A stretch of 64,000 nt of DNA from positions 3,782,001 through 3,846,000 of the forward strand of contig AP014633.1 of NCBI GenBank assembly GCA_000828835.1, given 5' to 3'. Below, one piece after another: positions 7,361 to 54,848 of the stretch. A model generated the notes under the pieces. It saw nothing but the letters and a program-made list of their open reading frames with translations. It searched no databases and was not told where the DNA came from. Numbering within the stretch: position 1 is the stretch's first letter; the number at the start of each line of letters is the position of its first letter. Origin of the DNA: Thioploca ingrica. Its GTDB lineage: Bacteria > Pseudomonadota > Gammaproteobacteria > Beggiatoales > Beggiatoaceae. A program made the position numbers and the translations under genes.

Positions 7361-8326
7361 TTATTGCCATAGCTTGATAAGGTTATCATCACTACCGGAA
7401 GCTAAAAGTCGTCCTTGGGGTGTAAAAGCAATGGAATTAACTGCGGCATTATGCCCAATCAGCGTCGTCAGTAGTTGACCGTTACTGGCTTCCCAAATTT
7501 TAATATTGTAATTGGTACCGGCACTCGCAGAGGCAAAAAACTGATTATTATTGCTCCAAGCGACTGCCGTCACAGAATCACTATGTCCTGGTAGAGTATA
7601 TAACTTTTTACCACTATTCATTTCCCATAAAATGAGGTTATGTTGAGTCCCACCGCTACCAGATACTAAATATCTACCATTATGACTAAAAGCTAAACAG
7701 ATCACTGCACCTTCATGTTCGGTAAAACTTTGTAATTCCTGACCGTTGTCGATATTCCACAATTTAATGGTTTTATCCCAACTACCAGAAGCCAACTCTC
7801 CCGTTATGGGATTAAAGGCTAGGGCGTACACATCTTGTTCATGACCGACTAAAGTACGAATCACCTGCCCCGTATCGAGATCCCATAATTTAATCATTTT
7901 ATCCAAGCCACTTGAGGCGAGCCATCGACCGTCTGGACTGAATGCAATAGCAATAATGCCATAAGGTTGCTTCGCTAAAGTACGATATAATTGTCCCGTT
8001 TTGACCTCCCATAAACGAATGGTTTTATCAACACCGCCACTGGCTGAGGCGAGCCATTGTCCATCTAGACTAAAAGCCACCGCATTGACCCAATCTGTAT
8101 GACCTTGTAGGGTATTTAATAGGTTTCCAGTTGATACTTGCCAAAGTTTGATCGTTTTATCCATACTTCCTGAGGCTAAGATTTCACCCTGGGGATTGAA
8201 AGCCACTGATAGAACTGAATCCGTATGTCCTCTCAAGGTATGTATCTCTTTGGAAGGTAATGATCGACAACCGAATATTTCCAGGGTAACTAAAGCGATA
8301 ATACTCATAATAAAATGGCGGTGCAT
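7361..8326 (-). CDS. Seven-bladed WD40 propeller lipoprotein
   Basis: The 321-residue product begins with a short signal peptide ending in LEIFGC, a plausible lipobox, followed directly by seven WD40 blades. Two blades (second and fifth) carry a GG insertion before the DKTI position. The start at 8326 has AGAGGAA just upstream. It is probably lipid-anchored in the envelope. Together with the gene 23 nt downstream it looks like a tandem duplication that diverged: both proteins reach the first blade through a similar SLPSKEIHTL or LPSRELYTL linker. Confidence 0.87.
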   Translation of the reverse strand: MHRHFIMSIIALVTLEIFGCRSLPSKEIHTLRGHTDSVLSVAFNPQGEILASGSMDKTIKLWQVSTGNLLNTLQGHTDWVNAVAFSLDGQWLASASGGVDKTIRLWEVKTGQLYRTLAKQPYGIIAIAFSPDGRWLASSGLDKMIKLWDLDTGQVIRTLVGHEQDVYALAFNPITGELASGSWDKTIKLWNIDNGQELQSFTEHEGAVICLAFSHNGRYLVSGSGGTQHNLILWEMNSGKKLYTLPGHSDSVTAVAWSNNNQFFASASAGTNYNIKIWEASNGQLLTTLIGHNAAVNSIAFTPQGRLLASGSDDNLIKLWQ

Positions 8327-8371
8327 CGGTTATTCCTCTTGCTAGACTGATAAAACTTTACCCACTTTATC

Positions 8372-8510
8372 ACTGCCATTAACTTAAGCCAATTCAGTTC
8401 CCTCTGCCGTCGGAGAAAAGTTAGAGCAGGGTAGGTATAACTCACTAAAAAGACAGTTTTTTATTTATATTTTTCCCAACAGGCGTGGAATTTCTTCAGT
8501 TAATGGCGGT
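8372..8510. repeat. MITE-like element overlapping the 3' end of the cyclase gene
   Basis: ACTGCCATTAACTTAAG at 8372-8388 pairs with CTTCAGTTAATGGCGGT at 8494-8510 (15 of 17 positions). These ends match those of the elements at 1773 and 31744. The right end lies within the cyclase gene and supplies its last codons and the TAA stop. Confidence 0.65.
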
Positions 8511-10257
8511 TATTTGGTAAATGATTAGAGTAAATTAATTCATTCGGTGGTGGTAGTAAGCAAGGGGGTGTTTTTTTACCGACTAGGAAATAGGTTTGCA
8601 TACTCCCTTTACCTTTGACTTCAATTAAGCCACGGTTTTCAAATTCAAAAGTCGACTGTAACAGCTGATAAATCGTTTCTGTACACTGAATCTTGCCAGC
8701 AACGCCGTGTGATTCCATGCGAGCGGCTGTATTGACAACATCACCCCACAGATCATACGCAAATTTACGTTTGCCAATAATCCCAGCGATGACTTCGCCA
8801 GTACTGATACCAATCCGAATAGAAATATCAAAATTAAATAATTTATTTAATTCAAATACTTTATCTCTCATTTCAAGTGCCATTAATGCCATTATCTCCA
8901 TATGCGCTTCACACGGTTTGGGCACACCAGCGACAACCATATAGGCATCACCAATGGTTTTAATTTTTTCCAAACCATACTGATCCGCAATAAAATCAAA
9001 TTCAGAAAATATCTGATTTAAAATTTCTACTAATCTTGCTGGTGTAGTATGAGCAGCCCATTGTGTAAATCCGACAATATCACTAAATAAGATCGTGGCG
9101 TGGTCAAAATGTTCAGCGATCATAGTTTCACCTTGTTTCATCCTTTGAGCAATAGAAATCGGTAAAATATTATTTAACAAAGATTCCGTTTTTTCTTTCT
9201 CCACAGCTAAAGCTTGGCTCTTGTCTTCCAACGAATCTAACATCGCATTGATTTCTTGACTTAAAACAGCCAACTCATCTTGTCCGACAACTTGTACTCG
9301 TTGACTCACATCACCACTACGAGTAATGATTTGAACATCCCTAACCAACTGAAATAATCGAGATAATACCAGTTGCCTAATCAAAAGTAAGCTAATTCCT
9401 AAAAATAGGAAACCGGATAAGGTCAGTGCGACTAGAAAGCGATTGAGGAGTTGTAATCCCTGTTGGTAAATCGGCCGGTTTTTACTGAGATGAATAAGCA
9501 AACTGGGTTGGTTGTTGAGATCATAAAACCAGGTAAAGCCTTCCACTAGTTGATTATTTTTCGGTAATACTACGAATGGTTTAGGAGCGGCTAGCGCGGT
9601 GAGAGCCGGTTGCAAATTCAGGTGTTGCTGTGCTTCTTGAAAAGAATAAAACCGAATATTTAACCGCAACCGCTGAGTAATCGCTTGGCTTAAAGCTTGA
9701 TCAAAAAATTTACCAAAAATTAACGTTCCCATAATGGGTCCGGTTTTATCATTACGTAAAATAGGACGTGAGGCGATAAGCAGTAGGGTATTGGAAAGTG
9801 TAACCAAGCCATAAACGGTACTTTCTTTAAAATGATGACTTAACAAATTCGGTGAATTTTGAATATACTGAATAAGTTCTGCAACGGGCCAACTAGAATT
9901 GTGAGGATATTTTCTCGTCGCCACAATCTTTTTATCTTTATTTACGAAAACCATGACATTAATCCCGAGCGTAACGAGTTCATCATTACTGAGATTATTT
10001 TTAATATAACTTGGGTTATGATCTTGAATAAATTGGTAGGTTTCATTCCAAATAGCCCAATCTCCTAATTTATTGTTATTAATTTTAATTTCGTAACGAA
10101 TGGCATCTAATATCCTTTCTAAATCTCCCTGTATTTCCATTTGCTCTAGTGAAGCATATTTTTCCAGTAAAATATGGTTCATAATTAAATAAAATATGGA
10201 TAGCACTATTAAGAGTGTCAAGCTAATAATCAAGCTAGCTTTGGGAAGTAGTTTCAA
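8500..10257 (-). CDS. CHASE4-HAMP class III adenylate cyclase
   Basis: I choose a TTG start at 10257 because GAGGAGA lies 6-7 nt upstream; the longer reading would place this site inside the gene. The product (585 residues) has a membrane segment at about 10-30, a periplasmic CHASE4-like sensor domain, a second segment near 270-290, a HAMP domain and a class III cyclase domain (about 380-560). FSDIVGFT gives the metal Asp. The Lys of EKIKTIGDAYMV and the Asp of YDLWGDVVNTAARM are the adenine-selecting pair, so cAMP is the likely product. The input ligand is unknown. Confidence 0.9.
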   Translation of the reverse strand: MKLLPKASLIISLTLLIVLSIFYLIMNHILLEKYASLEQMEIQGDLERILDAIRYEIKINNNKLGDWAIWNETYQFIQDHNPSYIKNNLSNDELVTLGINVMVFVNKDKKIVATRKYPHNSSWPVAELIQYIQNSPNLLSHHFKESTVYGLVTLSNTLLLIASRPILRNDKTGPIMGTLIFGKFFDQALSQAITQRLRLNIRFYSFQEAQQHLNLQPALTALAAPKPFVVLPKNNQLVEGFTWFYDLNNQPSLLIHLSKNRPIYQQGLQLLNRFLVALTLSGFLFLGISLLLIRQLVLSRLFQLVRDVQIITRSGDVSQRVQVVGQDELAVLSQEINAMLDSLEDKSQALAVEKEKTESLLNNILPISIAQRMKQGETMIAEHFDHATILFSDIVGFTQWAAHTTPARLVEILNQIFSEFDFIADQYGLEKIKTIGDAYMVVAGVPKPCEAHMEIMALMALEMRDKVFELNKLFNFDISIRIGISTGEVIAGIIGKRKFAYDLWGDVVNTAARMESHGVAGKIQCTETIYQLLQSTFEFENRGLIEVKGKGSMQTYFLVGKKTPPCLLPPPNELIYSNHLPNNRH

Positions 10258-10568
10258 GAAAATTCTCCTCAATTATAGAACAATAAGTTGAACAGTTTTC
10301 GGTAGAAAGAGGCCAAGGTGCGTTACGCTACACTAATAACCTTACTTAAAATAAATTTCTCATAAAAACTATCCGAACCATTGATAGAAACAACTTATAA
10401 AATAGGTTTGACCAAGCGCTTTGGTTTTCTCTATAGACTACTATTAGAACCCATTAAAAAGTGAGTTAAAGAAACAACCTAGAGTGCGAATTGAATTTCA
10501 TGACTTCTTGCAAAGAGAGAACCATCTCATTTAACTAAATGTTTTAGCATAAAAAATATCATAAAAAA
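10258..10568. other. Divergent intergenic region
   Basis: This AT-rich gap lies between the divergent cyclase and O-antigen-ligase genes. It contains one copy of the dispersed motif GGTGCGTTACGCTACAC near 10317-10333. I see no clear promoter or small gene. Confidence 0.4.
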
Positions 10569-32567: not shown

Positions 32568-35500
32568 ATGAAATGTAGAGTTAAAGAAACCCTGTTATTT
32601 GTCGTTCGATTCAATCAAAATAGATTAAGAACAGATAGTTCTACCGATTACCAGTCAAAATGTATACTCAACTGGTGTAAAATATGGCTTAATGCGTTGG
32701 GGCTACTGGTAATTTCGGTAGGCGTGTCCGCTACACCGACATTCCGTCCTGACAATGGGCATTACTACGAAGCGTTCAACTCATCTCAAACTTTTGATCA
32801 AGCGGTTAGCATAGCAAGCACCTTAACTTATTGTAGTATGACCGGTCACTTGGTCACCATCAATGATAGCGCCGAGCAAACCTTTATTAAGAACCTAATT
32901 CAAAATATCCAACCGCCAAACCCGTGGTATATTTTATGGATTGGCGGCAAACAGGTTTTAGGCATAACACAGTGGATTACCAGCGAAACTTGGTCATATA
33001 CCAATTTTAAAAGTGGCCATCCTGCGTCAAGTCATTACGGAATAAGCATTGGAGGCTCCGGTTACTCCTACCAATGGATGGGGCAGTTGTCCAACCAATC
33101 ATTGGGAAATTACATCGTAGAATACGAAGGCACACCAACCCCAGAAATTCAACTCAAGGGTGGGATACCGGCCACGGAGATTGTCGACGGAAGTACTAGC
33201 CCAGTAACTACGAATGATACCGATTTTGGCGATGTGATAGTAGGTAGTTCTATCAATAAAACCTTTACGATTGAAAACAGTGGGGTAGATAGTTTAGCTT
33301 TAACTGATTCGCCCTCTGTTGTTGCTCTGACAGGTACTTGTACGGGCTTTAGCGTTACCGCACAACCGACCTCATCTTGTGTCGCACCCAATGGTCTCAC
33401 TACCTTTACCATTCAATACCAGCCGATTGTTGCGGGCACACACTCCTGCACGGTCAGCATTGACAATAACGATAGCAATGAAAATCCCTATGATTTCAGT
33501 ATTCAAGGGGTGGGAGTAACACCACCAGAAATCGATATCCAAGGCAACAGCATCAGCATTGCGGATGGTGATACCACGCCGGGTTTGTCTGACAACACCG
33601 ATTTTGGTAGCACCCCGATAGATACACCCATCAGCAAAATTTTTACGATTGCCAACACCGGCGAAGCGGACTTAAACTTATCTGACAAGCCGCTAATCGC
33701 TTTGACGGGAGATGGTTGTGCGGCTTTCAATGTAACTACCGAACCAACTACACCCGTTACCGCCACCAGCGGTACTACCAACTTTATCATTGAATACAAG
33801 CCGATTGCTGCGGGCACGCACACCTGCACGGTCAGCATTGCCAATGACGACCCCGACGAGAATCTCTATAATTTTAGTATTCAAGGGAGTACACCAGCAA
33901 AAATTGATATCCAAGGTAACGGTACCAACATTGCAGATGGAGACACCACGCCAAACACGGCTGACCATACTGATTTTGGCAACACCTCGATAGGTTCGTC
34001 TGTCAGCCACACCTTTATGATTGCCAACACCGGCGAAGCCATTTTAAACTTATCTGGCACGCCGCTAGTTGCTTTGACAGGCGCCGGTTGTGCGGCTTTC
34101 AGTGTGACGACTCCACCGACCACGCCGGTTGCCGCCACCAGCGGTACCACTTTCTTTACGATTCAATACAACCCGCTGACGGTGGGCACGCACACTTGCA
34201 CGGTGAGCATTGCCAATGACGATAGCAATAAAAATCCCTATAATTTCAACATTCAAGGGATTGGTTTGATGCCGGAGACTAATGTAACGCTACCGGAAAT
34301 GAATATCCAAGGTAACGGCGTCAGCATTGCGGCGGGGGATACCAAGCCCACCACTGCTGACAATACCCATTTTGGTAGCACTCTGCTCGGCACGCCTATC
34401 AGCAAGACCTTTACGATTACTAACACCGGCAGAGCGATTTTAAACTTATCCGGTACGCCGCTAGTCGCTTTGACCGGTGCCGATTGCACCGCTTTCAGTG
34501 TGACGATTCCACCAACTACACCCATTGCGGTCACTAGCGGTACGACCACTTTTACGATTCAATACAACCCGCTGACGGTGGGCACGCACACTTGCACGGT
34601 GAGCATTGCTAACGACGACAGCAATGAAAATCCATATGATTTCAATATATTGGGTAAAACTGCTTTGGTAGCCAATGACGATAGTGCCAGTACCACGCAG
34701 AATATCCCCGTGACGGTTGCTGTGTTGAGTAATGATCGGGTTCCTGAGGGAGATTTAAATTTACTGAGTTTAAAGGTAACTACACCACCCCTGAATGCCA
34801 CTGTGACGGTCAATCCCGATAGCACGATCACTTATCTTCCTAAACCAGGCGTTACGGCAAATACGGATAGCTTTATTTATCAGCTATGTGATGGCGATAA
34901 TCCACCGCAATGTGCTACGGCTACCGTCACTATAACGATAGCTAGGCAGTTACCACCCGTCGCAGCAAACCTGAACGCTCCGATAACGTTTAATAATGCG
35001 ATAGTACAATTACCGCCATTAGCGGCTCAAGATTCAGATGGTACCGTCACTATTTATACGATTGCTGCTTTACCTTTGTCGATCCAAGGCATTTTATATC
35101 TCGGCGATCCGGCTAAAGATGGCCAATTAGTCGCCGCTGGTCAAGAAATCAAACCGGATCAGATAGGAAAACTCTTTTTTCAACCAGCTAATCATTTTAT
35201 TGGCACAGCAAGTTTTACTTATACGGCCACAGACAATTTAGGCGCCATCAGTAATTTCGCTTCGGTGACGATACCGGTTGAGGCACCAGTCAATCATCCC
35301 CCACTGGCTCATAACGACACCGGAAATACTCATTCAGAGATGCCGGTGACGATACCCGCTAACTTACCGCCGGTGGCTGATAATAAGACCGCTTCAACAC
35401 TCAATGATACTTCAGTGTTATTACCGCCTTTATCGGCGACAGATACAGATGGTTCAATCGTTTCTTATACCATCACGACTTTACCATTGACAACTCAAGG

Positions 35501-37103
35501 AATTTTATATTTAGGCGATCCCCAAACCACTGGACAATTCATTGGGTTAGAACAAGAACTCACGCCCAATGAAGCCGAGAATCTGTTTTTTCAACCCCAT
35601 CCTGATACCGTTGGTGAAGTGACTTTTAATTATCTGGCTACTGATGATCAAGGCGAACCCAGTACCACAGCAACCGTAACTATCTCAGTGACTGCTCCTC
35701 CCGTTATTATTCCTGAGGTACCAACGATTACCTATCAACCACCGTCCACTGCCATAGATGATGCGCGATTTTTCGGGAAAATTTGGAGTACTAGCGGTAA
35801 AGTCGGAAAACGACTCAGCATAGATGCGCCTGAACCCATTCAGATCACCGGCGCTATCCAACCCAGTTCCAAGCATATCGGAGAACTCGCTGATATTCGA
35901 GTGATTTATGACTGGAGATCTAACCCGGACGACCAATCCTTAACGGTCCCAGTCACGATCGCCTCTCAGCAACGGTTAACGACACAAATGGAATTCAGCT
36001 TATTTGAAGGTTATTTAATCGGGTTAGCCGGTCAATTTGAAATCCGATTAGGTTACCAACTGAACAATGGAACCTTTCTTTCCGCTCCCATCCTGAGTTT
36101 GAAAGTCGAGCCCGATCGACCACCAGCTGATATTGACTTGTCTCATCAAACCGTGCTGGAATACAGCCTAACCGATACCCTGATTGGTTCATTCACCACA
36201 ACGGATCCCGATAACCAGGAGCAATTTCGTTATGGCTTAGTTGATAATCCGGGTGATTACTTTAAAGTGGTTGGTGGAGAACTTCGAGTTAACTATTCGT
36301 TGCCCAGTCAGAAAGTTCAGTCTGCCTACCCTATCACGGTGCGTAGTGTAGACCTGAGTGGTAGCGCTATAGAAAAATCTTTTTTGATTCAAGTCCTCAA
36401 TGCGAAAACTCAGCCGCAAGAAATTTACTTGACTCAAAACACTGTCGTAGAAAATAGCCCTGGCGGGACGATGATTGGTCGGTTGTGGACCCTGGATTCG
36501 CAATCGAGTCACTATTCCTATGAACTGCTTGACGACGCTCAAGGTCAATTCACTCTAGAAGGTGATTTACTGCGGGTTGCCCCAGAAGCGACTTTGGATT
36601 TTGAGACTCAACCTACTTATGCGATTACCGTCCGCAGTTGGAAAACCGAGGAACCACAATTCCATTTAGAAAAGACCTTTACCATTGATTTAATCAACCA
36701 AATTGATGTGACTGTGTTAACGGAATTCCCAGACAGCCAGCGTGCTCAACGACTTTCCGCTGCTGACGGGCAAAACCAGGATGAGATTGAACTCACCCTC
36801 CAACTTTTACCCGATCCAACCCATCAAGGAAAATCGGCTGAACTCATGAGAGTTATGTTTTGGCGACCCTTGGCGAGTAGTGAAATCTTTATGTATCGAC
36901 CTGAAGGAACGCAGTGGATACCTTGGCATGGTGATTTAGCGGAGTTGTTGACGGGTCAAGTTCTCACGCTCCAGCGCCAACATGAAATGAAGTTGGTGCT
37001 CAAGCCGCCATTTGACTGGAACCAGGGTGAAATTAATCTCGTGGTCGGTTATCAGTTATCCGCTGGAGAAATCTTCTATGCAGCAGTTCCTTGGCACTCG
37101 TAG
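32568..37103 (+). CDS. Giant secreted surface protein: C-type lectin, four anchor-D-like repeats, Ig/cadherin-like domains
   Basis: AGAGGAG lies before the start. After a long N-region and a hydrophobic segment (about 40-55) come a C-type lectin domain (58-190; HLVTINDSAEQTF, WIGG, NYIVEYEG), four repeats of about 125 residues (191-695) of the HYDIN/choice-of-anchor-D type (IQGNG, TDFG, FTIxNTG, GTHTCTVSI), an Ig-like ANDDSAST domain (700-795), two more Ig/cadherin-like domains (796-1060), an unnamed domain (1065-1184), two cadherin-like domains and a second copy of the unnamed domain (1372-1511). It is probably an adhesin or sheath component. No membrane anchor or type I secretion signal is obvious at the C-terminus. 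Confidence 0.87.
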   Translation: MKCRVKETLLFVVRFNQNRLRTDSSTDYQSKCILNWCKIWLNALGLLVISVGVSATPTFRPDNGHYYEAFNSSQTFDQAVSIASTLTYCSMTGHLVTINDSAEQTFIKNLIQNIQPPNPWYILWIGGKQVLGITQWITSETWSYTNFKSGHPASSHYGISIGGSGYSYQWMGQLSNQSLGNYIVEYEGTPTPEIQLKGGIPATEIVDGSTSPVTTNDTDFGDVIVGSSINKTFTIENSGVDSLALTDSPSVVALTGTCTGFSVTAQPTSSCVAPNGLTTFTIQYQPIVAGTHSCTVSIDNNDSNENPYDFSIQGVGVTPPEIDIQGNSISIADGDTTPGLSDNTDFGSTPIDTPISKIFTIANTGEADLNLSDKPLIALTGDGCAAFNVTTEPTTPVTATSGTTNFIIEYKPIAAGTHTCTVSIANDDPDENLYNFSIQGSTPAKIDIQGNGTNIADGDTTPNTADHTDFGNTSIGSSVSHTFMIANTGEAILNLSGTPLVALTGAGCAAFSVTTPPTTPVAATSGTTFFTIQYNPLTVGTHTCTVSIANDDSNKNPYNFNIQGIGLMPETNVTLPEMNIQGNGVSIAAGDTKPTTADNTHFGSTLLGTPISKTFTITNTGRAILNLSGTPLVALTGADCTAFSVTIPPTTPIAVTSGTTTFTIQYNPLTVGTHTCTVSIANDDSNENPYDFNILGKTALVANDDSASTTQNIPVTVAVLSNDRVPEGDLNLLSLKVTTPPLNATVTVNPDSTITYLPKPGVTANTDSFIYQLCDGDNPPQCATATVTITIARQLPPVAANLNAPITFNNAIVQLPPLAAQDSDGTVTIYTIAALPLSIQGILYLGDPAKDGQLVAAGQEIKPDQIGKLFFQPANHFIGTASFTYTATDNLGAISNFASVTIPVEAPVNHPPLAHNDTGNTHSEMPVTIPANLPPVADNKTASTLNDTSVLLPPLSATDTDGSIVSYTITTLPLTTQGILYLGDPQTTGQFIGLEQELTPNEAENLFFQPHPDTVGEVTFNYLATDDQGEPSTTATVTISVTAPPVIIPEVPTITYQPPSTAIDDARFFGKIWSTSGKVGKRLSIDAPEPIQITGAIQPSSKHIGELADIRVIYDWRSNPDDQSLTVPVTIASQQRLTTQMEFSLFEGYLIGLAGQFEIRLGYQLNNGTFLSAPILSLKVEPDRPPADIDLSHQTVLEYSLTDTLIGSFTTTDPDNQEQFRYGLVDNPGDYFKVVGGELRVNYSLPSQKVQSAYPITVRSVDLSGSAIEKSFLIQVLNAKTQPQEIYLTQNTVVENSPGGTMIGRLWTLDSQSSHYSYELLDDAQGQFTLEGDLLRVAPEATLDFETQPTYAITVRSWKTEEPQFHLEKTFTIDLINQIDVTVLTEFPDSQRAQRLSAADGQNQDEIELTLQLLPDPTHQGKSAELMRVMFWRPLASSEIFMYRPEGTQWIPWHGDLAELLTGQVLTLQRQHEMKLVLKPPFDWNQGEINLVVGYQLSAGEIFYAAVPWHS
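34158..34609 (+). repeat. Recent internal duplication in the surface-protein gene
   Basis: A 56-bp stretch beginning ACGATTCAATACAACCCGCT at 34158 recurs without change at 34554. The offset of 396 bp is 132 codons, one protein repeat. The match at DNA level shows that repeats three and four duplicated or exchanged recently. Confidence 0.7.
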
Positions 37104-50121: not shown

Positions 50122-51312
50122 ATGTGGAACTTAAACGATAGCAACAGTTGGTTGCTCATTTTCATTTCGTGGGGATTATTATTTTTAGTAGCACCCGTTA
50201 ATGCGGCTATCACGGTAACGGCCGGCAGTGGACAGCAAGTTCCCGCCGGTTCACCCTCAGCTGATATTTTTTTTAAAGTGACTGATGCCACTGGCAATCC
50301 CAATACCAGTACCACGGTTAATTTTAGTTTAATTGATCCAGCGGGAAATCCGGTTAGCAATGGTCTTTCAACCTCGAGTGCTTCAACGAGTAATAATGGC
50401 TTAGTCTCTACTCGTCTTAATCCCACCAGTAAGTTAGGTAATTACACTATTACCGCTACTTTGGTATCCGATACCACTCAGTTTACCGGTATTAATGTGG
50501 TGGTGGTTGCCGGTCTACCCGCTAAATTAACGGTTACCGAAGGAGGTGAGCAAACGCTACCAGCGGGTCAAAGCTCAGCTAACATCCGCTTTAAATTAAC
50601 CGATGCTTTTAATAATGCGGTTGCTGGGCAAGTTATTCATTTTACCTTGCGTAATCCTAGCGGCGAAATGGGTAATGATAAACTGTTTCTCACCGAAGCC
50701 ACGACTGATATCAATGGACAAGTCACCACGCGGGTGGAAGCACTGAAAACGGAAGGAAGTTACCTCGTTATGGCTACCTTGGCAACCGATGAAACCATTA
50801 GCATTCAGGTACCTGTGCAAATCGTTGAACCGATTCCACAATTACCGAATTTAGGATTTGGTATGGCATTTGACGCCAATGGTGCGGTAGCTGAAACCAC
50901 GGCGAGCTTTAATGGCGGCACCAAAGTCAATGACGGCGAATTTAATCAAGAAGTGGTGTTTAATCTGAATGATTCCATTTCCGTTCAAGGTGTTATCAAT
51001 GTAGACAGCCGTCATATTGGGCAAGCGGCTGATATTATTATTGTCGCTAGTCATAACCCGATTGTGCCTTTCAATACTCAACAAATATTTTATATGTTCA
51101 GTAGTAGCAACCTTCCAGAAGTATGGGATGGGAACTTAGCTCATTTAGTGGCATTTAGCCGGGTTAATAATTTACCGAAAAAACTACCGCTCAACCTCTA
51201 TGGTGGCAAAGTCGGGTCACCAGGATTATATCAAGGCTATTTCGGCTATCGATTAGACAATGGCTTAATCGTGTTTAACGGTAACCAGACGATAAATCTT
51301 CGAGTTAAATAG
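50122..51312 (+). CDS. Secreted protein with two Big-1-like Ig domains and an unnamed C-terminal domain
   Basis: The 396-residue protein has a signal peptide ending in APVNA. Two Big-1/invasin-like Ig domains follow (about 33-130 and 131-235; GSGQQVPAGSPSADIFFKVTD and GGEQTLPAGQSSANIRFKLTD). The C-terminal part (240-396) matches the two C-terminal regions of the giant protein at 32568, with HIGQAADI, VWDGNLAHL and FGYRLDNGLI as landmarks. GGAGG precedes the start. Surface or periplasmic location is likely. Binding partner unknown. Confidence 0.8.
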   Translation: MWNLNDSNSWLLIFISWGLLFLVAPVNAAITVTAGSGQQVPAGSPSADIFFKVTDATGNPNTSTTVNFSLIDPAGNPVSNGLSTSSASTSNNGLVSTRLNPTSKLGNYTITATLVSDTTQFTGINVVVVAGLPAKLTVTEGGEQTLPAGQSSANIRFKLTDAFNNAVAGQVIHFTLRNPSGEMGNDKLFLTEATTDINGQVTTRVEALKTEGSYLVMATLATDETISIQVPVQIVEPIPQLPNLGFGMAFDANGAVAETTASFNGGTKVNDGEFNQEVVFNLNDSISVQGVINVDSRHIGQAADIIIVASHNPIVPFNTQQIFYMFSSSNLPEVWDGNLAHLVAFSRVNNLPKKLPLNLYGGKVGSPGLYQGYFGYRLDNGLIVFNGNQTINLRVK

Positions 51313-52094: not shown

Positions 52095-54848
52095 ATGTTA
52101 CTAAAAAATTTTATAGACGTTAAACGAGTTTTCAAAGAGAAAACAGCTAATTTTACCAAGATACCGAGTAGTATTTTGCGAATAAGTTGTTTTTATGAAG
52201 GGGTAGAAATCGCTCTTTCACACCCGATTCAAAGAGACCATGTTATTTCTTTACTAAAAAATTGGTTTGGTACTTGGTTAGATGAGAAACGTCCGGTTAT
52301 TTTGCTAGATATAAACGATTCTGTGTTACCCATTGAATTTATTGAAGATGAAACCAGGAAGTATGAGAACCAACTGAATCGTCCTTTTTGGCATGAAAAT
52401 GCTTACCTGTCGAATAGTGAAGAAGCCAATCAACCAGTACCACTTCCTACCGAATTTTCCAACTCGCTTAAAATGGCGGTTTTTCACTCTTTCAAGGGTG
52501 GCATGGGGCGCACTACTCATTTGGTGGCTTATTTATTGGCTTTACTAGAACGCGCGAAAGAACTTAAACAGGAAGTGAATATATTGGTGATAGATGCTGA
52601 CTTGGAAGCCCCTGGCTTGAGCTACTGGCAACGCCAGGAAAATTTGGAACCAAGCGTCTCACTCATTGATTTTTTAGAGACTTACCACTATCCACCTACT
52701 ACTAGAGAAGCGGTCATTGCTTTTTACGCGAAGGAATTGAAACGGACACAGCATCCTTTGGGATTTTACCTATTACCCGCCTTTTTAACTGAGCGCCAAT
52801 TATTGGATCTTGAGGTGTTACCAGAGCATTTAGTACGCGATTCTGATGATATATGGGAATACAGTCAAGCGGTTGAAGAATTGGCTAAGGCTTTAGAGGC
52901 AAGTTTCGTCTTGATTGATTCGAGAGCGGGATTGAGTGAATTGGCCAGTCCGTTACTCTTTGATCCTCGATTAGAACGTTATCTCGTCACGACGTTATCT
53001 GAACAATCAGTGCGCGGAACTTGCTTGGTGCTTGACTTACTAGCCCGCATGATGCCTGATTGGCAAGCAGTTAAAGAAGGCAAGTATTTAGACCCGACAG
53101 TGGTCATCAGTATGATTCCGCCAGAATTGGTAAAATCTCCCATTTACACTGAAAACACTCAACGCCTATTGGAGTCTTACCTTGACAAGGTTACTACGGA
53201 TGATGTTTTGCCAAGACTGCAGGTGGAAGAAACCAATTTTGCTCAAGAATTGCTTCTCCTTTCTGGCTGGAACGATGCTCGCCAAAAATTGGCCGGCACT
53301 TCAATGATGAAACAGGCTAAACAATGGGCTGAAGAAACCTTGCCCATAGAAGTTCCCTCATCGTCACCTATCGGTACCCATCACCCTGGAATTGAGTCTC
53401 TTGCAGGGGTAAAAAGATTACAAGAGATTTGCAAAAAGTATGAGTATGCTGAAAGAGGTGAAAGTGACGATTTACTCATCACCGAGCCATTGAAAAATTT
53501 AGCTAAGAATCACACCGATAAACTCCCCAAGATCGTGTCTATTGGTGCAAAAGGTGCAGGGAAAACCTTTAATTACTTACAATTAGTGAATAGGGGAAAG
53601 TGGAACAGTTTTTTGCAAAAAACGGGTATTCCTACGGAAGAGCACCATAATGCCTTTATTTTTCCTCTTTTGCAATCACAGAATTTGGCGGTAGAGACAC
53701 AAAAACCGCTTACACAAGCAAGGGAGGCATTTTTACAAGCCGTTAGTAATGGTAACCCCTTTTCGCTGAATCAACTAGCCGATGAAATTACTGAGAAACT
53801 GTCTCAAAATTTAACCGAGCTTGAATGGAGAACTTTTTGGATTGACACTTTAGGTAAACTTATCAACAATCCCCACACATCTACCCCTCAACCCAATTCT
53901 CCGACGCCGACAAGTAAATTGACAGAAATGGATGTTTATTTAAAACAAAAGAACTTGCAGGTCATTTTCTTATTTGATGGGTTAGAAGAACGCTTTCCCG
54001 AAGTTGCTAAAGAACCGGCTCAACAATGTGCGCTAAGAGCACTACTTGAATTACCTAATTATTTAGGTGAAATTCGCCAATCAAGTATCGGCGTGATTAT
54101 ATTTTTACGCCGCGATTTCGTCAGATATGTGGTTCAACAAAATGTCGGACAGTTTGAAAACCGTTATGAAGCTTACGACTTATCATGGAACTTCAAATCG
54201 TTTCTTCAATTGGTTTACTGGATTTGTGCTCAAATCGACGTGATTGGAGCAACTCGTGAAAAGGTGTATGAACTTTCTACGGAAGATCTCAGGCAGCAAC
54301 TCGAATTATTTTGGGGGAAAAGACTAGGTACTGATGCTTCAAAGTATGTTTATACAGTTCGCTGGATTTATGCGGCGTTGACAGATTTCAAGGGCAAACT
54401 GCAAGCGCGAGACATTGTGAGACTTTTGTCTTTTGCAGCAGAATACACCATAAATAACAAGGATGTCTTTGAAAAATGGAAACTCACCCGCCTACTCCCT
54501 CCTCTTGCCATCCGTAAATCCATAGAGGGATGCAGTGAAAAAAAAGTCGAGGAAGCAAAAAACGAATATCCAGAGGCATTCAAAAATTGGGTAGGCGAAT
54601 TGCTCAGATTAGACCGAGAACAGCGCAAGATACCCTTTAACCCGCAAGACTTTGCTATGGAACAATCCACTATAGAAATACTTCAAGACCTCGGTGTCAT
54701 CTACGAGGATACAGAAACTGAGGGTAAGGCTCGCTTTTACATTCCGGAGATATTTCGTGCCGGACTGGGTTTTGAACATGCTGGTAAAGCGAGACCTCGC
54801 ATCATCGCTTTGAAGCGCAGAATGCTAAAGGATGCCGGAGGAGAATGA
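52095..54848 (+). CDS. KGGVGR-type ParA/MinD-like ATPase fused to a second P-loop NTPase
   Basis: The 917-residue protein has an unassigned N-terminus (1-125), then a ParA/MinD-like ATPase (about 127-420). Its deviant Walker A reads FKGGMGRTT at 133-141, with Arg where ParA has Lys, followed by VIDADLEAPGL and VLIDSRAGLSE. From about 480 a second NTPase starts: GAKGAGKT is its P-loop and VIFLFDGLEE near 620 its Walker B. The last 300 residues are helical with a winged-helix look. AGGAA precedes the start. KGGVGR-variant ATPases are known, and this layout suggests a conflict or defence role; that is inference. Confidence 0.78.
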   Translation: MLLKNFIDVKRVFKEKTANFTKIPSSILRISCFYEGVEIALSHPIQRDHVISLLKNWFGTWLDEKRPVILLDINDSVLPIEFIEDETRKYENQLNRPFWHENAYLSNSEEANQPVPLPTEFSNSLKMAVFHSFKGGMGRTTHLVAYLLALLERAKELKQEVNILVIDADLEAPGLSYWQRQENLEPSVSLIDFLETYHYPPTTREAVIAFYAKELKRTQHPLGFYLLPAFLTERQLLDLEVLPEHLVRDSDDIWEYSQAVEELAKALEASFVLIDSRAGLSELASPLLFDPRLERYLVTTLSEQSVRGTCLVLDLLARMMPDWQAVKEGKYLDPTVVISMIPPELVKSPIYTENTQRLLESYLDKVTTDDVLPRLQVEETNFAQELLLLSGWNDARQKLAGTSMMKQAKQWAEETLPIEVPSSSPIGTHHPGIESLAGVKRLQEICKKYEYAERGESDDLLITEPLKNLAKNHTDKLPKIVSIGAKGAGKTFNYLQLVNRGKWNSFLQKTGIPTEEHHNAFIFPLLQSQNLAVETQKPLTQAREAFLQAVSNGNPFSLNQLADEITEKLSQNLTELEWRTFWIDTLGKLINNPHTSTPQPNSPTPTSKLTEMDVYLKQKNLQVIFLFDGLEERFPEVAKEPAQQCALRALLELPNYLGEIRQSSIGVIIFLRRDFVRYVVQQNVGQFENRYEAYDLSWNFKSFLQLVYWICAQIDVIGATREKVYELSTEDLRQQLELFWGKRLGTDASKYVYTVRWIYAALTDFKGKLQARDIVRLLSFAAEYTINNKDVFEKWKLTRLLPPLAIRKSIEGCSEKKVEEAKNEYPEAFKNWVGELLRLDREQRKIPFNPQDFAMEQSTIEILQDLGVIYEDTETEGKARFYIPEIFRAGLGFEHAGKARPRIIALKRRMLKDAGGE

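Follow-up and report, generated by a model that had tools for sequence, protein, structure and literature searches.

The C-terminal sorting domains of the type IX secretion system (T9SS) of Bacteroidota are small beta-sandwiches at the C-termini of many unrelated exported proteins. Choice-of-anchor proteins are named for their interchangeable C-terminal anchors, and the tails of the choice-of-anchor D proteins are typically sorting domains. The domain of Thioploca ingrica described here has features of both systems: like the T9SS domains, it is a small, predicted beta-sandwich found at the ends of numerous exported proteins that belong to one lineage but are otherwise unrelated, and it occupies the C-terminal slot of choice-of-anchor D proteins (NF012200); 20 of the 42 carriers scanned have choice_anch_D (10 of 23 plus 10 of 19). 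Unlike the T9SS domains, however, it has no match in the domain libraries, belongs to a gammaproteobacterial family and is also found at internal and N-terminal positions (in 6 of 43 proteins even the last copy is far from the end). Unlike the tails of choice-of-anchor D proteins, it is a folded end domain and not a transmembrane, LPXTG or PEP tail, and it matches no described anchor. The domain is thus a new family, with a known fold class and in a known kind of architectural slot, that of the 'choice-of-anchor' proteins.

The window analysed, a stretch of 64,000 nucleotides (contig AP014633.1, positions 3,782,001 to 3,846,000), has three copies of the domain in two proteins. An exported protein of 1511 amino acids with a signal-peptide-like N-terminus (32568..37103, plus strand) contains the internal copy c1 (35706..36110, plus strand; profile match C1:3817706-3818110), 340 residues away from the C-terminus, and the C-terminal copy c2 (36645..37100, plus strand; profile match C1:3818645-3819100). 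The two are separated by a cadherin domain (residues 1292-1356; 36441..36635, plus strand; best stretch of PF00028, E 8.4e-10). According to Pfam and NCBIfam, this protein has four choice_anch_D / HYDIN-type Ig stretches, Big_9 and cadherin domains; the label 'giant lectin' of the initial annotation is backed by no more than a Lectin_C match below the Pfam cut-off (17.2 versus 22.6 bits). The second protein, also with a signal-peptide-like N-terminus, has 396 amino acids (50122..51312, plus strand) and consists of two Big_1 domains followed by copy c3 (50833..51309, plus strand; genome profile and AlphaFold2 model), which reaches the last codon. The description as a C-terminal module therefore holds for c2 and c3, but not for c1. 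No Pfam or NCBIfam family covers c1, c2 or c3 in scans of both window proteins. The Big_1 protein is adjoined by an ORF of 917 amino acids (52095-54848, plus strand) with an N-terminal P-loop-like motif (KGGMGRTT), a large ATPase.

The three copies had been proposed to match one another. The local score of the c1-c3 pair is 88 and is reached by none of 1000 shuffles (best shuffle 51); the c2-c3 pair is borderline (score 45, reached by 1 of 1000 shuffles) and the c1-c2 pair alone is unconvincing (score 43, reached by 14 of 1000). As c1-c2 fails the shuffle test, a family profile was required: built from 23 copies, c1 and c2 excluded, it found c1 at 6.1e-9 and c2 at 6.2e-12 in a search of 663 ORFs. 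Recovery of both copies by a profile that contains neither settles the homology, and c1, c2 and c3 are one homologous domain of about 150 residues. One of the proposed landmarks has to be corrected: c1 has no W-D-G-x-L segment, and its FEGYLIGL, taken for the second landmark, is not homologous to that landmark in the other copies but corresponds to the Y-x-G-x-[LF] strand further on.

A search of the 4.81 Mb genome with c3 as single query gives 44 matches up to E 1, of which 34 are under 1e-3; the profile A1 gives 56 with an E-value of at most 0.01. Counted in the loci fetched plus the window, the own-genome matches fall in 43 proteins and 58 segments. In 36 of the 43 proteins, the last copy stops 0-6 residues short of the stop codon, in line with the expected enrichment at C-termini; the distance is 18 residues in one protein and 128-388 residues in six. 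The consensus starts with (F/A)xGGxxxN...DxVxVxGxIxVDPxHxGQxA(D/E)(I/L)...(Y/W)...MLD...PWDxxxxxLVAF and continues with ...L...(Y/F)xG(L/F)...G...FGYRLxDGTxVxN..I.V.I-end. Across 54 distinct copies (numbering of the 396 amino acid protein), the GYR motif has its tyrosine (Y376) in 54, its glycine in 53 and its arginine (R377) in 46, and W335 and D/N336 are conserved in 49 copies each; polar loop motifs and core positions alike are conserved. A full-length copy is present in 39 proteins. In 11 of these, the closest paralog of the domain belongs to an otherwise unrelated protein, which fits a shuffled module and agrees with the earlier claim that the copies lie in unrelated architectures; in the remaining 28 the domain was duplicated jointly with neighbouring domains.

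Of 31 copies scanned singly, none matches a Pfam-A family above the gathering score (lowest E 0.059) or an NCBIfam family over the curated cut-off (lowest E 0.03); in both libraries the weak matches involve one copy for each family. Models for T9SS C-terminal domains or other known sorting domains are absent among the Pfam and NCBIfam matches of these 31 copies. The Pfam models for Big_1, Big_9, cadherin and HYDIN-type modules, which share the Ig-like fold class and are present in the same proteins, do not match them either. A profile search of the PDB sequences gave nothing usable (best E 0.18), and no open PMC paper was found, by title and abstract, that describes the domain. The initial annotation, which knew no name for the domain, was right in this respect: no library family fits any of the 31 copies convincingly. 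The two outcomes that it had named as refuting its observation, assignment to a described family and absence of similarity between the copies, were looked for and neither was found.

A structure prediction had also been suggested, and AlphaFold2 returned a confident all-beta model for c3 with 13 strands and one short helical turn (pLDDT 94.7, pTM 0.88; 24 homologues in the alignment). At the level of fold class, this model identifies the domain as an Ig-like beta-sandwich. When c3 was compared with the PDB using Foldseek, nothing was found at E <= 1e-3; rank 1 went to the carbohydrate-binding domain of Wzt (5hnp, E 1.4e-3), and a beta-glucosidase, RhoGDI and adhesin repeats came next. Wzt was again first with a second model, made from a divergent copy (E 3.2e-4). 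The Wzt domain (5hnp, 6o14) is an Ig-like sandwich of similar size; however, the rank-1 alignments have TM scores of 0.22-0.41 and identities of 7-12%, and the comparison is one of predicted fold only. The best VIA-align rows of the two models have Z 8.2 (rmsd 3.1, 109 aligned) and Z 8.6 (rmsd 2.6, 102 aligned), not clearly over the stated background of the tool, and the Wzt rows (Z 7.6 and 8.1) are tied with unrelated rows and not above antibody domains. The rows of c3 are mostly of Ig type (Z about 7-8.2). Adhesin repeat domains, including repeats with intramolecular ester bonds, show a distant likeness at the fold level (Z 7.8-7.9, rmsd 3.2-3.6, 114 aligned). Neither Foldseek nor VIA-align found a close solved relative in the PDB, and among predicted viral proteins Foldseek gave no hit that reached E 0.001.

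Upstream of the domain, 16 intact carriers have an unnamed glycine-rich spacer (GGxLxGxIxNxG...), which immediately precedes the domain in 14 of them. It is also present in L084, which looks like a gene split by a frameshift, with spacer and domain in adjoining ORFs of different frames (7869-9941 and 9941-10339). One example, with homologues in alignment A10, is L061:9283-9804 (plus strand), a stretch with no match in Pfam or NCBIfam, and spacer arrays are found in L088 and L091. Alignment A10 has 44 matches in the genome; two Calx-beta regions were excluded from the spacer profile and matches in L069, L071 and L073 were left out. Minor spacer matches include a pair at C1:3602078-3602288. The AlphaFold2 model of a homologue (pLDDT 82, pTM 0.52) has regular short strands followed by the strand order of c3. 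Such strands are typical of a beta-solenoid, and the spacer is thus predicted to be a beta-solenoid stalk; given the pTM of 0.52, the relative placement of stalk and domain is uncertain. Spacers are also found in proteins that lack the domain: among those read, five stop 2-4 residues past the spacer (L147, L148, L149, L151 and L066:5177-9352) and five run on into a region of about 280 residues (L150, L152, L153, L154 and L155). The C-terminal regions of the latter are homologous to each other (pairwise E down to 2e-96) and unrelated to the Ig-like domain; this unnamed region carries a D-x-NGD-like segment. The same spacer can therefore be followed by the domain, by a stop or by the 280-residue region, so that one stalk has three types of end.

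The cargo of the 43 carriers is varied and includes CAP proteins (L067, L078), a sulfatase, a legume-type lectin, a beta-helix protein and a metzincin-like protease, in which the domain is placed N-terminal to the protease. Whole-carrier scans with Pfam and NCBIfam covered 42 proteins, leaving out the 133 amino acid fragment L084, and the families named from them are those among the matches listed, the first 25 by members in both Pfam scans and one NCBIfam scan. Among the matches listed are LRR, beta-propeller/lactonase, Calx-beta and cadherin proteins, four carriers with choice_anch_Q and two with choice_anch_T. Also among the matches listed, one carrier, from a set of 23, fits the model for PorU, the type IX sortase, in NCBIfam (E 2e-24) and four fit Peptidase_C13 (best E 1.7e-7); these carriers probably have caspase-fold proteases as cargo. 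In one subgroup, a cadherin-like region is flanked by the domain on either side: this is the arrangement of the 1511 amino acid protein, and two separated copies are also found in L087, L089, L090 and, partly, L095. L078 is a short CAP protein (349 amino acids) that has no stalk and ends in the domain. In L077 and L092 the domain directly follows the signal peptide and precedes an enzyme-like region, and the same position immediately behind the signal peptide is seen in L118, from the genome of another family. In L092 (8956-10413, minus strand) the region behind the domain is CxxCH-rich and resembles a multihaem cytochrome; judged from its sequence, the protein may serve in electron transfer at the surface.

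In a set of 40 related genomes that includes its own, all 25 genomes of the same family have the domain, with 1 to 56 copies each, and none of the 15 genomes of other families has it. In a sample of the class, at least 5 of 369 genomes match: four belong to the family, and one, G240, lies outside it and has two copies; in the order of G240, 3 of 24 genomes match, one of them weakly. In a sample of the phylum, at least 1 of 398 genomes matches, and among the matches listed it is only the own genome; in some genomes of the class and phylum samples, first-look candidates were scored in part. A pattern search of genome contigs returned 32 stretches, of which 25 are confirmed loci, including loci of Thioploca, Thiomargarita, Halobeggiatoa, Parabeggiatoa and Thiotrichaceae and three that are assigned to Gammaproteobacteria only. 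These 25 loci contain 27 copies: 19 end within 8 residues of the frame end (two of them pieces of the split gene L143 and two partial matches, L136 and L139) and 8 do not. The domain is narrowly distributed and largely confined to the Beggiatoa family.

Signal peptides had been expected to be enriched among the carriers, and this is the case: a signal-peptide-like N-terminus with no later transmembrane segment is present in 32 of 43 carriers, compared with 112 of the 459 ORFs in their neighbourhood (Fisher p 9e-11). This strict, home-made rule asks for an N-terminal hydrophobic core and a cleavage-like site; the comparison set consists of ORFs rather than curated genes, and some carriers that fail may have mis-assigned starts. 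With a looser rule, the numbers are 34 of 43 versus 204 of 459. The ortholog of the 396 amino acid protein in a congener is 89% identical, and c3 is under purifying selection between the two (dN 0.05, dS 0.65). L067 and L158, considered as another ortholog pair, are 28% identical and not orthologous and were excluded. When the 459 neighbour ORFs were clustered, no family recurred in more than 7 of 39 loci (window included); the clusters are broad families only, by eye histidine kinases, ABC ATPases and others. Exosortase_EpsH is absent from the own genome (one control genome matched) and present in some relatives; exosortase as a partner, with a PEP-CTERM anchor, was rejected, as it is not co-distributed with the domain. 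SprA_N has no match in 12 genomes, the control genomes being likewise without a match.

Our best explanation, to which we give a probability of about 0.4, is that this family-specific Ig-like beta-sandwich serves as a non-covalent tether to the cell surface or matrix. The carriers would be exported via Sec, and the exported domain, usually last and often carried by a beta-solenoid stalk or by Ig or cadherin domains in a row, would bind a component common to these cells, such as LPS or a polysaccharide of sheath or slime; once bound, it would hold the diverse cargo at the cell surface or in the matrix. Binding of a ligand, its glycan or envelope nature and the tethering effect are what we infer; the ligand is probably a glycan, which the weak likeness to Wzt makes the first candidate. 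A tether explains the diversity of the cargo, the company of choice-of-anchor domains and the free placement of the domain, as a position at the end, at the front or within a protein is compatible with a binding module. The enrichment of export signals, the conserved polar and aromatic positions and the purifying selection on c3 also speak for it, and it comes close to the envelope anchor that the initial annotation had put forward as one option. The five same-stalk paralogs that stop without the domain show that retention does not depend on it in every case. The initial annotation had also considered a secretion or sorting signal. In this case, the folded domain would be recognised by a machine in the outer membrane dedicated to it, which would export or attach the protein, as for T9SS cargo. 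The end position in 36 of 43 own-genome proteins and of 19 of 27 copies in relatives, the many unrelated cargos and the share of choice-of-anchor D proteins among the carriers fit such a signal. However, the copies directly behind a signal peptide (L077, L092, L118), the internal copies and the same-stalk paralogs with another end or none weaken it, no known sorting domain in Pfam or NCBIfam matches the domain and exosortase is not co-distributed; we therefore consider it unlikely.

The mostly terminal position could also reflect a structural role, in which the domain would be the first part to fold, or would close off stalks and arrays of Ig domains, and would stabilise long exported proteins with no binding involved. 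Its Ig-like fold and its place after the beta-solenoid in 16 intact proteins are what such an end cap would predict, but the domain also ends short proteins that have no stalk and begins others, five stalks finish uncapped, and conservation of polar loop motifs alongside core positions speaks against a cap, so that we regard this role as unlikely. The large surface proteins with Ig, cadherin and LRR domains, the large number of paralogs and the distant fold likeness to adhesin repeats would suit an adhesin head that points outward and attaches to foreign surfaces, to prey or to neighbours and not to the own envelope; yet the domain is also present in enzymes, CAP proteins and a multihaem protein, and one set of motifs is common to the paralogs, a pattern closer to a shared ligand than to heads that diversify, which makes an adhesin head highly doubtful. 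A Beggiatoaceae surface-display system of its own is quite improbable too: here, a dedicated receptor or machine would recognise the domain at any position and display about 1% of the proteome, as an independently evolved, gammaproteobacterial counterpart of type IX sorting in gliding filaments.

Whether it acts as a tether or otherwise, the domain offers a clean marker of surface and matrix proteins in the large sulfur-oxidising filamentous bacteria (Beggiatoa, Thioploca, Thiomargarita); how these glide, build sheaths and form mats is poorly understood in terms of the proteins involved. In the richest species, the profile turns several dozen 'hypothetical' proteins per genome into a single testable class, and it leads to a stalk that is used with three alternative C-terminal ends within a single genome.
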